A stretch of DNA of 64,000 nucleotides from Oscillospiraceae bacterium (GTDB lineage: Bacteria; Bacillota; Clostridia; Oscillospirales; Ruminococcaceae): the NCBI GenBank assembly GCA_009783695.1, contig WRCY01000003.1, positions 27,512 through 91,511 of the forward strand, read 5' to 3'. The translations under genes were made by a program, and so were the position numbers. Positions 8,013-54,119 of this stretch are shown here, in pieces. Position 1 is the first letter of the stretch. Each line of letters opens with the position of its first letter. The notes beneath the pieces were generated by a model. It made no database searches. It saw only the letters and a program-made list of their open reading frames with translations, and had not been told where the DNA came from.

Positions 8013-8394
8013 GCAGATTTTCGGCATAGAGCAGAAAAGCTTTGACGAACCGTGGAGCATGGAAATGATTACGGCACAGTTGAATTCCGGGAACAGCACG
8101 ACGCTCATCAAGACCGTGAACGGTGTTCCCGCCGGCTACGCGACGGGATTAAAACTTGAGGAAGAATCTGAACTTTACCGCATCGCAGTGCTCCCCGAAT
8201 ACCGCGGACAAGGCATAGCGAAAGAGCTGCTCGCACGGTTCATAGAGAAGTGCGAAGGCGATATATTTTTGGAAGTCCGCTCGAGAAACACAGCGGCTGT
8301 TCATCTTTATAAAAGCGCGGGTTTCAAGCAGGCGGGGCTGCGGAAGAATTATTACGGAGACGACGACGCTTTGATATTCAAGAAAGAAGTTTAA
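7990..8394 (+). CDS. rimI: ribosomal protein S18-alanine N-acetyltransferase-like GNAT protein
   Basis: IAVLPEYRGQGIAKELL and FLEVRSRNTAAVHLYKSAGFK; overlaps the preceding CDS by 23 bp. Confidence 0.85.
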   Translation: MRNLLTAEQIFGIEQKSFDEPWSMEMITAQLNSGNSTTLIKTVNGVPAGYATGLKLEEESELYRIAVLPEYRGQGIAKELLARFIEKCEGDIFLEVRSRNTAAVHLYKSAGFKQAGLRKNYYGDDDALIFKKEV

Positions 8395-8538
8395 AATAAA
8401 ACCGAATCGGGGAAATGTTGTTTTCATTTTGCTTTTGTGAAGAAAGGGCTTAATGAAAACAAGTTTAAAATAAATGAAACCGAATCGGGGAAAACGTTGT
8501 TTTCATTTTGCTTTTGTGAAGAAAGGACTTAATTAAAA
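8388..8538 (+). repeat. dispersed 5' leader repeat, two tandem copies (79-bp period) before pdxK
   Basis: gtgaagaaagg occurs at 8437 and 8516. Confidence 0.95.
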
Positions 8539-12746: not shown

Positions 12747-12825
12747 AGTTCAAAAATAAAATCCTCATGAACCGGGAAGAACACTGTTCTCATTCCTCGT
12801 TGGTGAAGAAAGGACTTAATGGAAT
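12747..12825 (+). repeat. dispersed 5' leader repeat before zinc-ribbon gene
   Basis: ttcaaaaataaa...accgggaagaacactgttctcattcc...gtgaagaaaggacttaatgg. Confidence 0.9.
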
Positions 12826-15849: not shown

Positions 15850-16163
15850 CTTAAGGAAAGAAAACTGATGAAACGGGAAAACGATGTTTTCATACAGTGT
15901 TGGTAGAGAAAGGGCTTAACGTAATAAGTTTGAAAATAAGAATTGCTGAAACGGGGAAAACGATGTTTTCATGCCATGTCGGTGAAGAAAGGGCTTAACG
16001 TAATAAGTTTGAAAATAAGAATTACTGAAACGGCGAAAACGATGTTTTCATACCGTGTCGGTGAAGAAAGGGCTTAACGTAATAAGTTTGAAAATAAGAA
16101 TTGCTGAAACGGGGAAAACGATGTTTTCATGCCGTGTCGGTGAAGAAAGGGCTTAACGAAAAT
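15850..16163 (+). repeat. tandem array of four ~79-bp leader repeats before the SNF2-like gene
   Basis: gtaataagtttgaaaata begins at 15921, 16000 and 16079 (exact 79-bp spacing), plus a shorter first copy. Confidence 0.97.
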
Positions 16164-18053
16164 ATGAGTAACATTGAATGGCTTTGGACGAGCGGTATTA
16201 ATTTTGACTCTTATGCACTGACGATTCCCGACAAGCTGTCCAAATACGGATACGCGGTCGCGCTGAACCGTATGGAAACGGGGAAGCTGCAGACGGCGCA
16301 GCTTTGTGTTCATGATGTTCTGGCGGGGAAAGACAACCCGAACATTGTAATTATAACGCCCGAACACCTGGCCCGCAACTGGTACTATTCGATGCTCTGG
16401 GATATGGGGGTTGAGTTTAAGTACTTTGGTGTTTTTGAGAAGTCGCTCGATTTATTTTCTGATGCGCTCGCCAATCTCTGTCTTGTTCCCGCAGAGGCCT
16501 TAGGCCCGGAAAACACTGTGCTGTCACAAGCGGGTAATGCAGGGCTCGCATGGGATTTGATGATTATTGATATGCCTGTCGCGGGAGAAGCAAATATTAC
16601 GGAAAGCTTGAAAAACACGAAAGCCAAAACAAAAAGGCTGCTCATCAATGCGTCTGCTGACAGGCTTGACACGAAATTTGAAAAACTTTCGGCGCTTGCG
16701 AAGACTGTGCTCCGCCGCGGCAGAAAAGAAGACAAGGGAGCCGAATATCCTATTTCGTTGTCGGAGCCGGACGGTCACGTTGCCGCAGGCAGAAACATGA
16801 CGGGCGACTACGACATTAAGACGATTAACTACAAAATCGACAGCACTGTTACCGCTAAAACCGAGCGCATTGACGATAAGAGGCTCGGAATTCCGCTCTA
16901 CAGCTACGGCGGGAACATATTTGAGGAATATAAACTTAAGGAAAGAAAAACCTACTTAAGCGATGAATATGATAAAGTACAGCTCAAGGCGCTGCTTGCC
17001 GCGGACGGCAAGCTGGAGGCGTTCCTGAAAGAAATCGTCACGCTGCTTGCCGACAGTGAGAACCGCATTGTCGTCTACTGCACATCGCCCGCCACTGTAA
17101 ACTACGTCAGCAAGGCGCTCTGGGCGTGCAACGGCGGCAAGAAAGGTATCTGCGTCTACGACCGGAACTGCAGTACCATGACCGACGCCGAGTTCGTTAA
17201 CGGCGAGCTGTACGGCGCGGGTACTGAGGAGCCTAATATAATAGTCGCCGACGACAAAGCAGGAAGCAGGTTTCTCAACGCAGAAAAAATCACGCATATA
17301 ATAAATTATGAATATCCCGAGAGCCCCGCGGTTTTGGAACAGCGGCTGACCCGTGCGGGAAGAAAACCGAACCCAAAGAGCCCCGCGTTTTATATCTTCT
17401 GCGACGGGGATTATAAATTCGACGGCAGAATGTTGCGTAAGACAGTTCTTAGCAACATAGGCAAGGCGTTCAGCAGAATTCCCGATAAAACTCTGCTGTT
17501 CGATATTGACGGTATAGAAGAGCATTTGATTGTGCTGATACTTGACTTGAAATTCATCGCCGACAATGCGAAAGACGACATGGTCGAGGACTTCCGCGTT
17601 GAATACAACGCGCCCGAGGTTAATTCAGCCAAAGACGCCGCCGCAACAGCCGAAAAAAGGCTTAAAAGCATTGTTGAGATGTTCGGGCTGCACGATGTCT
17701 TAAAGCAGAAGGAAATAGACGGTGAGCAGCTTTTCATGCAAATATCCGAACAGATTGACAAGTTAAAAAATAACAGGGTCTGCCTTGACGAGAAAGGCGT
17801 TCTGACGGTCGCCGGAAAAGCTGCCGAACCGGAAATAATCAAAAACTCAGTTGAAATAAAAAGAGCCGCAGAATTCGCGGCGAAGCTTACCGGGAAGAAA
17901 CAAGATTTAGAGCTGCTCAAAGCTGAGACGGAAAAACTCTCATACAGTCAAAAGCTCTCGGTACTCATAAACGCGTGGAAGCATTATAGGTTTGAGCTGA
18001 AGATTCAAAAATCATATAAAGATTTTATTGAACTTTTTAATCAGCTGGCTTGA
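16164..18053 (+). CDS. degenerate SNF2/SF2 helicase-like protein
   Basis: Helicase-like layout with motif VI-like QRLTRAGRKPN; motif I-like METGKLQTA and motif II-like DLMIIDMPV are non-canonical. Confidence 0.6.
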   Translation: MSNIEWLWTSGINFDSYALTIPDKLSKYGYAVALNRMETGKLQTAQLCVHDVLAGKDNPNIVIITPEHLARNWYYSMLWDMGVEFKYFGVFEKSLDLFSDALANLCLVPAEALGPENTVLSQAGNAGLAWDLMIIDMPVAGEANITESLKNTKAKTKRLLINASADRLDTKFEKLSALAKTVLRRGRKEDKGAEYPISLSEPDGHVAAGRNMTGDYDIKTINYKIDSTVTAKTERIDDKRLGIPLYSYGGNIFEEYKLKERKTYLSDEYDKVQLKALLAADGKLEAFLKEIVTLLADSENRIVVYCTSPATVNYVSKALWACNGGKKGICVYDRNCSTMTDAEFVNGELYGAGTEEPNIIVADDKAGSRFLNAEKITHIINYEYPESPAVLEQRLTRAGRKPNPKSPAFYIFCDGDYKFDGRMLRKTVLSNIGKAFSRIPDKTLLFDIDGIEEHLIVLILDLKFIADNAKDDMVEDFRVEYNAPEVNSAKDAAATAEKRLKSIVEMFGLHDVLKQKEIDGEQLFMQISEQIDKLKNNRVCLDEKGVLTVAGKAAEPEIIKNSVEIKRAAEFAAKLTGKKQDLELLKAETEKLSYSQKLSVLINAWKHYRFELKIQKSYKDFIELFNQLA

Positions 18054-18092
18054 AAATAATAAGGCATTTTCAAGTTAATCGGTTATATAACT
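18049..18092. repeat. short derivative (one end) of the hairpin element family between the SNF2-like and GHKL genes
   Basis: CTTGAAAATaataaggcATTTTCAAGTTAATCGGTTATATA. Confidence 0.65.
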
Positions 18093-18123
18093 GTGCAGAA
18101 ACACATTAAACGAGGTGAAAAAA

Positions 18124-21100
18124 GTGGCTATTGAAATAAATGGCAGAACCGTAACTGAACTTTGCGGCGATTTTTATGAGGGGCACGCAGCCGGCGACTC
18201 CGAAAAAATGAGCTCTACGCTTGTCGCGCTTGACGAGCTGCTCATGACGGGCGAAGCGGCGCACCTTGAGTTTATTGAGTATTTCAACGAGCTGTTCAGC
18301 GGGCGTTCAGCGTATAACACGTTGATTGGCGTTAAGGATTACCCCGTTGAAAGTGTGATTCGCGAGCTCTTACAAAACGCTTTCGACTGCGATTATGAGC
18401 AGGAAGACATAAAAATCGGCATAAACTTCAAAGACAACCACACGATTTCCATTTCATACAATGAAGTCGGGTTCATCTTAGAGCAGTTCATGTTCTACCT
18501 CAGCTTCGGGCGCAACACCAAGAACGCCGCCTCAAGCGAGGGCCGCTTCGGCGTGGGCGCCAAGAGCGTGTTCATGAATGTCGAGTGGCTTACCATGCGC
18601 TCGAACAACTTCAGCTTCAGTATCACCAACACCGACAATCAGCTCCGGATTAACGACATAAATCTTCGCCGCCCGATTTTTAAGGGTACTGAAATAGTAA
18701 TAAAAGTCAGCGCAGAGCAGCACAGAAGAATCAAGGATAACTTCGTGAGCCTGACGGGCAGGAAAGGCGATTATATCAACCTTGTCGAGCTTTGTTTCGC
18801 GTTTAACAGAAAGAAAATCCTGCACAATAAATTATCGCAGGAGATTAATGACAAGCGTACATTTAACATCGCAGTCATGCACAACGGAAAACTGATTGAC
18901 TTCTATAAAATCTTCAACCACTTCAATAAAGCTGTAGAGGTGAACGTCGTGCGCTTTACGCAGGGCGGAAAGAGCGTGGTGGACTTCATCTGCCACGAGG
19001 ATGAGGGCTTCGTCTGCCTTATACCTTTTGCGGTGGCTGTGAGCAAGCGCACGGACTTGGTCGGGCTGCTGTCCGACAGATACAATTACTTCTCTACCTA
19101 CGAGCTTACCGGGCTCATGCAGGACGAGAACAGCACGTTCGCGGCTGAAAGGCTTTCCGCATTCTTCATCAGCGTCCCGAATCAGCTTATAACCTCTTTC
19201 CGTACCGGAATCCGCCCGGAAAAGGAGGGTGAGGTTATTGCACGCGTTGAGGACAGCCTCTCTAAAATTATAGCGGAATATGCGCGGTTCTTCGTGCTTG
19301 AGCTTGTACCAAACCCTGACGGGGGCGGACTTCATCACCTGCGCCCCGAGTCTTATGCGTTCGAGTTTATCAAGAACTTCATACTCACCTGTAACATTGC
19401 AAAAGGGCATAAAAAAGACTTTTTACGCGCAATTTCAGTGCGTTACTCGCGGGAGGAGGTACCCCAGCATTACACGGAACTGCAGAAAAACGCTTTCTAC
19501 AGCCGCGCTGACGGAATCGCTAAGGAAGAGCACTTAGACGGCTCGGCTTACGACGAGCTCATTCTCGAAAAATTAGACAGAATGAATGAAAATTTGTCAG
19601 GCATAAACGGCAGAATCCTCTATGCAGGCTACGAGTGGGCGGGCGAGCTCCCGGGCGACGCAGGAAAAGTCTACGCCTACGAGTTCCACCGTGACGGGCA
19701 GGTGATTACCATCAGCTCCGAGAACAATCCGTCCGGCACCGACTACGACCTGCACGACGGCTTCATGCGCATGACCTCGCGCATTATGGAAAACGCGCTC
19801 GGCAGCGATAAGGTTATAAGCGATGAGAAGTTTATAAATCTTTTACTGCTGCTTGATGAAGTGTACGGCGAGGATTATAAAATCGCGCTCCGTGACGGTA
19901 AAATAGTCGTTATTGAAGCGGGCGAGGAATTCCCTGCGGACGCTTCCGCGATGAGAATCGCGAATATTGCTAACGTCATGGGTTGCCTGCACAAGCACAG
20001 GAATACATTCCTTACTTACCAGGACTACAGCGAAACAGTGAAGTTTATGCTTCACAGGTTCGGCGGCGACAAAAGCATCGCGGACTTTCTGCGCGCTGTC
20101 ATTGAGCAGGACGGTGAGGTTGTCATCCGCCGCGGCGAAGACGGCAGCTATTGCTTCGCGCTTTATGAAACCGAGTACGCCATTCCCGATGAAATGCCCG
20201 CCTGCGAGCTGCTTGAAATCATTGACGACATAGGCGTGCTGATTAAATACGGCGTACTGGCGAACAGGCATTTCGGCTTTGAGTACAGCGAGAGCCGCTA
20301 CAGCTTTGAATCAAAGAAAATCGCAGACACGCTGTCTTCGGACATTTTACCCGCCGAAATGGTGACGGAACTGTTTGCAGGTATTTTCATAACCGATTTA
20401 AAAACAGAAAAAATCGCACTGCTCGGCGAGAGCGATGCGATTATCGACATAATTGACTACAAAGACGGCTTCGAGCCGGAGGACGCCGAAAAGTGTAAAA
20501 AAGCGCAGAAGTTCATCGTTATGCGCGATGATGTTTCTAAAGAGGAATTCGCGGATTTAATCGAGCTGATTATCACCGGCGAAAACAAAGAGCTCATGCG
20601 CAGGCGTTATCTCGGCGCGAAAGCCGCCAAGATTATAATTCCCGACCAGCTCGCGTTCTTCATGAAGCCGCTGTCGGCTATAAACAAGAGCGAGTTCAAG
20701 TTCCTGCGCGAAACCGTCCGCAGTATAAAAGAGAATAATTATACAGCGCGTAATTTCTATGCTAAGGATATCAACTCGAAATTGTTCGGATACGGCGGCA
20801 ACTGCTCGCTCTGCAGGTTTGAAACAGACGGCATCAACGGCTTTGAGGTCCGGGAGTTCGAGGCGGGGCTCATGCACGGCGGGCACGAGAAGCACTTTGG
20901 TTTCGCGCTGTATCTCTGCGCCAACGACGCGATGATTTGCGACAGCTGGGTCATTGACGACCTGAGTGCCGGCGGCAAATCGCCGTTCGCATGGCTTGAG
21001 GAAGTCGCGAAAGCGGACAGCATTACGCCGGAGCTCCTGTCGGGTACGATAACCTACCGCGAGCAGTACACGCACGACATAGCAAAGACCGACGGCGAAA

Positions 21101-21204
21101 GCTTCAAGCCGCTCATGTCAGCGCCGAAAACCACGAACATTATCCTTTCTCCTCTAATGGCGGCGAACTGGGTTGAAATGAATACTGTTATGCTGCTTAA
21201 ATAA
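18124..21204 (+). CDS. large Hsp90/GHKL-type ATP-binding protein (~1026 aa)
   Basis: N-box VIRELLQNAFDCD and G2 box EGRFGVGAKSVF typical of Hsp90-like ATPases; GTG start with GAGG RBS. Confidence 0.75.
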   Translation: MAIEINGRTVTELCGDFYEGHAAGDSEKMSSTLVALDELLMTGEAAHLEFIEYFNELFSGRSAYNTLIGVKDYPVESVIRELLQNAFDCDYEQEDIKIGINFKDNHTISISYNEVGFILEQFMFYLSFGRNTKNAASSEGRFGVGAKSVFMNVEWLTMRSNNFSFSITNTDNQLRINDINLRRPIFKGTEIVIKVSAEQHRRIKDNFVSLTGRKGDYINLVELCFAFNRKKILHNKLSQEINDKRTFNIAVMHNGKLIDFYKIFNHFNKAVEVNVVRFTQGGKSVVDFICHEDEGFVCLIPFAVAVSKRTDLVGLLSDRYNYFSTYELTGLMQDENSTFAAERLSAFFISVPNQLITSFRTGIRPEKEGEVIARVEDSLSKIIAEYARFFVLELVPNPDGGGLHHLRPESYAFEFIKNFILTCNIAKGHKKDFLRAISVRYSREEVPQHYTELQKNAFYSRADGIAKEEHLDGSAYDELILEKLDRMNENLSGINGRILYAGYEWAGELPGDAGKVYAYEFHRDGQVITISSENNPSGTDYDLHDGFMRMTSRIMENALGSDKVISDEKFINLLLLLDEVYGEDYKIALRDGKIVVIEAGEEFPADASAMRIANIANVMGCLHKHRNTFLTYQDYSETVKFMLHRFGGDKSIADFLRAVIEQDGEVVIRRGEDGSYCFALYETEYAIPDEMPACELLEIIDDIGVLIKYGVLANRHFGFEYSESRYSFESKKIADTLSSDILPAEMVTELFAGIFITDLKTEKIALLGESDAIIDIIDYKDGFEPEDAEKCKKAQKFIVMRDDVSKEEFADLIELIITGENKELMRRRYLGAKAAKIIIPDQLAFFMKPLSAINKSEFKFLRETVRSIKENNYTARNFYAKDINSKLFGYGGNCSLCRFETDGINGFEVREFEAGLMHGGHEKHFGFALYLCANDAMICDSWVIDDLSAGGKSPFAWLEEVAKADSITPELLSGTITYREQYTHDIAKTDGESFKPLMSAPKTTNIILSPLMAANWVEMNTVMLLK

Positions 21205-21260: not shown

Positions 21261-21290
21261 AAGAATCCTCAAAACGAGGATTCTTTTTTT
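21261..21290 (+). terminator. rho-independent terminator after the GHKL gene
   Basis: AAGAATCCTCaaaacGAGGATTCTTTTTTT. Confidence 0.93.
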
Positions 21291-53850: not shown

Positions 53851-54119
53851 GTTGTGAAGAAAGGACTTAATGAGAACAAGTTTAAGAATAAAATAAAACT
53901 GAATCGGGGAAAACGTTGTTTTTATTCCGCTTTTGTGAAGAAAGGACTTAATGAGAACAAGTTCAAGAATAAAATAAAACTGAATCGGGGAAAACGCTGT
54001 TTTTATTCCGCTTTTGTGAATAAAGGACTTAATGAGAACAAGTTCGAAAATAAAATAAAACTGAATCGGGGAAAACGTTGTTTTATTCCGCTTTTGTGAA
54101 GAAAGGACTTAATGAGAAT
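53851..54119 (+). repeat. tandem array of 5' leader repeats before hybrid kinase (81, 81, 80 bp periods)
   Basis: gtgaa(g/t)aaaggactta at 53854, 53935, 54016, 54096. Confidence 0.97.

Follow-up and report, generated by a model that had tools for sequence, protein, structure and literature searches.

Two adjoining genes at positions 16164-21204 of the window (the whole 64,000-nt stretch of DNA analysed, to which all coordinates refer) encode a pseudo-helicase of the SNF2/RapA fold, called HEL here, and an ATPase of the Hsp90/MutL type, called GHKL. The two genes are inherited vertically as a pair and are under purifying selection as strong as that on cell-wall genes. We propose that they could form a lineage-specific, chromosomally fixed two-subunit machine, domesticated in its present hosts, in which a GHKL clamp ATPase works with a catalytically dead SNF2 partner. 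We assign this explanation a probability of about 0.4.

All features described below lie on the forward strand. The HEL gene extends from an ATG at 16164 to a stop codon ending at 18053 (629 aa), an assignment based on the open reading frame, Pfam, AlphaFold/Foldseek and a PDB profile match. After a gap of 61 nt the GHKL gene follows, from a GTG at 18115 to a stop codon ending at 21204; its product has a long C-terminal half. The initial annotation had described this large frame as about 1026 aa, and it is slightly longer at 1029 aa. The motifs quoted there, METGKLQTA, DMPV and QRLTRAGRKPN in HEL and RELLQNAFDCD, SYNEVGF and GRFGVGAKS in GHKL, were found verbatim, and the description of the locus as a two-gene module is confirmed. 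Its interpretation stood for the conserved module, the helicase fold and the GHKL partner, but not for a mobile defence role or for a GHKL ATPase crippled by its G1 change. A probable intrinsic terminator, with a 10-pair stem and a T run, is located 3′ of GHKL at 21261..21290, in a region where the count of terminator-like sites is not above that in shuffled sequences.

Folds and catalytic motifs of the two proteins

HEL matches Helicase_C above the Pfam cut-off. Its AlphaFold model, computed with the genus alignment (pLDDT 84.5, pTM 0.87), shows two RecA-like lobes of the SNF2 type, and the Foldseek matches are RapA, Chd1 and SNF2h at about 1e-11. RapA is also the best PDB relative by sequence profile (E 2.4e-8). 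The catalytic motifs are in a different state. Motif I of the window protein is degenerate (NRMETGKLQTAQ, 16266..16301) and lacks GxGKT, which is near-intact in loci L050-L052, where the motif has the near-canonical form DEFGGGKTAKAQ. Motif II (WDLMIIDMPV, 16551..16580) contains Asp136, which is invariant throughout the genus, while the catalytic Glu is missing from all 51 genus sequences versus its presence in all four sister-genus sequences (DEEL or DEEI). The motif VI region (THIINYEYPESPAVLEQRLTR, 17292..17354) includes the invariant Arg394. The stretch Y-GGNxFEE-Y at residues 246-264 (16899..16955), a signature of the family, is invariant or nearly so and better conserved than the catalytic motifs.

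Among the sequences compared, from the genus and its sister genera, none has motifs I and II both intact. The order of the losses was read from the GHKL tree with the sister genera as outgroup; this tree takes its root from the genus labels and contains long outgroup branches that join one another. Most simply, the motif-II Glu was lost once at the base of the genus and motif I decayed later, several times in separate lineages, from DEFGGGKTAKAQ as in L050-L052 to NRMETGKLQTAQ as in the window. ATP hydrolysis by HEL has thus very probably been lost, as initially suggested, but this is a trait of the whole genus and not of one species. HEL may still bind ATP or hydrolyze it weakly, since many members retain the motif-I Lys and all retain Asp136 and Arg394. 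Given the invariance or near-invariance of Arg394 and of the Y-GGNxFEE-Y stretch, selection on HEL now targets something other than hydrolysis.

GHKL matches HATPase_c_3 just above the Pfam cut-off. A sequence-profile search of the PDB gave no relative, and the best Foldseek matches of the AlphaFold model (genus alignment, pLDDT 80.2) are the Hsp90 protein TRAP1 (2.4e-9), MutL and GyrB. These matches support a Bergerat fold followed by an S5 domain, in a model with a whole-model pTM of only 0.54. Structure prediction therefore agrees with both folds initially proposed for the pair. The N box (RELLQNAFDCDY, 18361..18396) contains Glu84, the predicted general base, and Asn88, a predicted Mg contact, both of which are invariant. 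The G2 box with the ATP lid (EGRFGVGAKSVFMN, 18538..18579) and the terminal GT motif (G191 and T192, 18685..18690) are near-invariant. A predicted S5-type transducer occupies residues 249-400 (18859..19314, borders approximate) and has conserved YNYFSTYELTG and RTGIR stretches.

The most unusual element is the G1 box, where the canonical DxGxG is absent and replaced by YNExGF (YNEVGF in the window, 18457..18474), in which Y, N, E and F never vary. In a profile alignment its counterparts are DNGIGL in a protein of the Hsp90 family and YNNKPF in a sacsin-type protein encoded by a different Bacillota genome. Because the variant is invariant and resembles that of sacsin-type GHKL proteins, it is better regarded as a family feature than as decay, and the essentially invariant N box, G2 and GT do not fit the view of a crippled ATPase. 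For sacsin repeats, both ATP hydrolysis and help in refolding have been reported (PMC3629688), so that YNExGF is compatible with ATPase activity. Judged from these motifs, GHKL looks like an active ATPase.

The C-terminal half of GHKL (residues 549-1023, 19759..21183) belongs to no recognised family and gave no Pfam or NCBIfam match. It includes a possible metal-binding motif, GYGGxCxxC...C, formed by the conserved Cys897, Cys900 and Cys935 (20803..20919). In one genome (G046, 96% complete) HEL is gone and GHKL is cut to a 496-aa gene that corresponds to residues 549-1023 and precedes mraZ; this locus, L097, is nested within a clade of species carrying full pairs. In another (G006) the beginning of the same short form is found at a contig end. 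Stand-alone genes that encode only the C-terminal half, with neither an ATPase domain nor HEL, are located at 3162-4652 of L097 and 6496-6981 of L100, which suggests that this half is an independently useful domain. A third genome (G054, 95% complete) has no HEL and keeps a highly diverged GHKL with an end branch of 3.9 (L094). HEL thus disappears when the ATPase half disappears or drifts; these events, few in number, suggest that HEL works for the ATPase half. The diverged GHKL retained in L094 shows that HEL is not strictly required.

Pairing, inheritance and distribution

HEL lies directly upstream of GHKL in 52 loci of the genus and in all four sister-genus loci, so the pairing assumed in the initial annotation is conserved. 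In 50 of the 52 genus loci the HEL stop codon is positioned -11 to +17 nt from the GHKL start as called by alignment, which suggests translational coupling. Pairwise distances of HEL and GHKL correlate with r=0.97 over 22 loci, and the correlations with dcw genes over these loci are 0.90 (HEL) and 0.87, whereas permutations reached at most 0.30. Inheritance of the pair is vertical. The dN/dS values are 0.05-0.12 for HEL and 0.02-0.09 for GHKL, similar to gpmI, mraW, murE and mraY; dS is saturated in several of the pairs compared, and pairs with dS < 1 agree. Purifying selection on the two genes is as strong as on murE or gpmI.

GHKL occurs in 58 of the 60 genomes of the genus, in two of these as the C-terminal half alone, and in none of the 39 other genomes of the order included in the same survey. 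In a survey of the family, full-length GHKL was found in 3 of 126 genera; outside the genus, full-length copies occur only in two sister genera of this family, g41 (3/3) and g239 (1/1). Among 399 genomes of the phylum only the genome containing the window has the gene, and a sample of about 650 genomes from other parts of the order and phylum gave no homologue. Since the order and the phylum were sampled, rare homologues could have been missed, and many of the surveyed genomes are incomplete MAGs. Named close relatives are Oscillospiraceae MAGs from termite guts. A single phage record with a homologue, MT835670.1 (L215), labelled "Bacteriophage sp." in GenBank, shares 98.5% identity with genus genome G014 (L075) over 16.8 kb and is a mislabelled chromosomal fragment, which removes phage origin as an explanation. 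This record is from human faeces, so the genus also occurs outside termites. The plasmid and viral-contig collections searched contain no homologue of the pair.

Although the gpmI/mraZ setting is common, about half of the species have the pair at other places, such as next to a threonyl-tRNA-synthetase-like gene (thrS) or flagellar genes (both named by eye), and linkage to gpmI and the dcw genes was therefore discarded as a functional clue. In the loci compared, no conserved nuclease, methylase, TIR or mobile gene was present beside the pair.

A 79-bp repeat in 3.7 tandem copies occupies 15869..16158, its last copy abutting the start of HEL. It belongs to a genome-wide family that is not specific to the module. 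Repeats of about 79-81 bp, single or in tandem, are also present at 8394-8538 and 53852-54118, and single cores at 12803, 13202, 27713 and 31665. The repeat terminates in GTGAAGAAAGGACTTAATGAAAAT, and the last copy provides a Shine-Dalgarno-like stretch directly before the next gene's start codon. With up to 2 mismatches the 19-nt core occurs 348 times in this 2.2-Mb genome (control 0), 90 times in the nearest relative G012, not in G023, and essentially nowhere else. The repeat is a recent genome-wide spread of an element carrying a ribosome-binding site.

Related systems and possible functions

MORC and paraMORC GHKL ATPases are known from restriction-modification operons where they adjoin SF2 helicases, including those of the SWI2/SNF2 type (PMC2292703), and this literature documents the association of GHKL proteins and helicases in conflict systems on which the initial annotation drew. 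The pair described here is similar in that a GHKL-S5 ATPase with largely retained catalytic motifs adjoins an SNF2-family protein. However, it has no conserved nuclease or methylase, it is nearly fixed in one lineage and neither mobile nor patchy, its SNF2 partner is catalytically dead, and the G1 box differs. The MORC S5 signature GhXhhpXXRhl (PMC2292703) was found in none of 58 GHKL sequences, so membership of the MORC family is rejected and descent from MORC-type pairs can be proposed by analogy only. In the three GHKL sequences inspected, an ExxxH motif of the paraMORC2 type is found each time at another position, none of them shared. Pfam and NCBIfam gave no match in the C-terminal half of GHKL to the RE-fold nuclease or TIR domain that paraMORC3/4 proteins carry at this end. 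In our reading the pair may work like a GHKL-SNF2 remodeller without belonging to the MORC or paraMORC families.

Sacsin-type proteins and TmtA (Tiamat) share with GHKL the N box, a Tyr-Asn replacing the Asp of G1 (YNNKPF in L166), a GRFGxG G2 box and a large size. The homology covers only some 80-120 residues of the N-domain, below the curated cut-off, and the C-terminal half differs. The sacsin N-domain model NF047352 scores 35.9 bits with the window protein compared to a cut-off of 50 bits; it matches 35 of 35 members below that cut-off (best E 2.4e-9), and one member matches Pfam SACS. The model was rejected as a specific marker because it also matches ordinary GHKL proteins of about 640 aa in most genomes. 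No literature linking Tiamat with Hsp90 was found. In three loci of other Bacillota (L177, L178 and L181) large sacsin/TmtA-type GHKL proteins adjoin what appear to be type I restriction genes, as named by eye. HtpG, the bacterial Hsp90, has the GHKL-S5 fold too, but it is encoded by a separate gene in the same genomes and GHKL is not a PF00183 match; in the genome studied here the PF00183 match is a different gene on contig C8.

Four explanations other than the two-subunit machine can be considered. The pair could be a resident anti-phage or anti-plasmid system fixed in the lineage, in which the SNF2-like protein is the sensor for foreign DNA and GHKL executes or triggers restriction. The nearest PADLOC relatives of the HEL family are the defence helicases HmaA, DrmD, DpdE and BrxHII, whose SNF2 core profiles match most HEL members (HmaA 30/34, DrmD 27/34), GHKL weakly resembles TmtA, and inactive SNF2 domains have been proposed as sensors in BREX PglZ (PMC12839542). 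The sacsin/TmtA-type proteins beside apparent restriction genes elsewhere in the phylum would also fit. However, HEL is about 60% of the length of these helicases and is catalytically dead, and the partner genes of their systems are not seen beside it. The near-fixed and vertical inheritance in the genus and two sister genera, a dN/dS as low as that of cell-wall genes, the several chromosomal settings beside ordinary cell genes, the missing nuclease, methylase or TIR partner and the absence from plasmid and viral collections all argue against such a role. Mobility, patchiness and a defence-island context, the hallmarks of anti-phage systems, are not features of the pair. A mobile defence island is rejected on distribution, vertical signal and neighbours, and the resident form is unlikely.

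A folding or remodelling chaperone, with a sacsin- or Hsp90-like GHKL and HEL as a dead-enzyme adaptor for a protein client and no role for nucleic acids, appears equally doubtful. It would agree with the Hsp90s as best structural matches, the sacsin-model matches, the shared G1 variant and the reported activity of sacsin repeats. Replacement of HtpG is excluded by the ordinary HtpG in most genomes of the genus, the SNF2 fold of the partner normally binds nucleic acids, and the gene setting is not one of stress genes. Still less probable is that HEL acts as a RapA-like transcription factor in RNA polymerase recycling or remodelling, without ATP hydrolysis of its own and powered by GHKL. RapA is the best PDB match and among the top folds, but the match is limited to the SNF2 core, HEL lacks the catalytic Glu and is shorter (629 versus 968 aa), it is paired with a GHKL ATPase, and profile matches to defence SNF2 proteins are comparable. 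The idea that both genes are decaying remnants without function could draw on the degenerate motifs and the losses or reductions in G046, G006 and G054. It is hardly tenable, since dN/dS values of 0.02-0.12, as for core genes, rule out pseudogenes, the frames are open in dozens of species, and non-catalytic residues are invariant.

In the proposed two-subunit machine, GHKL would act as a clamp or conformational engine driven by ATP, mechanically of the Hsp90/MutL/MORC type. Binding of ATP would close the GHKL-S5 halves, hydrolysis would reset them, and the long C-terminal half would handle a presumed client. HEL, a dead SNF2 subunit of the RapA/DrmD/HmaA type retained as a co-translated partner in a presumed complex, would regulate the ATPase or guide it to a target, either duplex nucleic acid or something polymerase-like. 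Its most likely origin would be a GHKL and SNF2 pair similar to those in conflict systems, which was domesticated ahead of the diversification of the genus and whose HEL lost catalysis at the base of the genus. More tentatively, the pair could be an undescribed core machine of one lineage of gut bacteria, in which a dead SNF2 subunit, fixed as a regular partner, and an active GHKL clamp act on the chromosome, transcription or translation, a non-conflict counterpart of MORC-type systems.

Pairs of a GHKL protein and a helicase are known from mobile restriction systems, and here such a pair is seemingly part of a near-universal cell function of one genus. The step by which HEL became a pseudo-enzyme can be placed on a tree, with the Glu present in the sister genera and lost in the genus. 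The lineages thus provide a natural experiment that asks what use a GHKL ATPase has for a dead SNF2 protein; in one of them HEL and the ATPase half are gone and the C-terminal half has survived.
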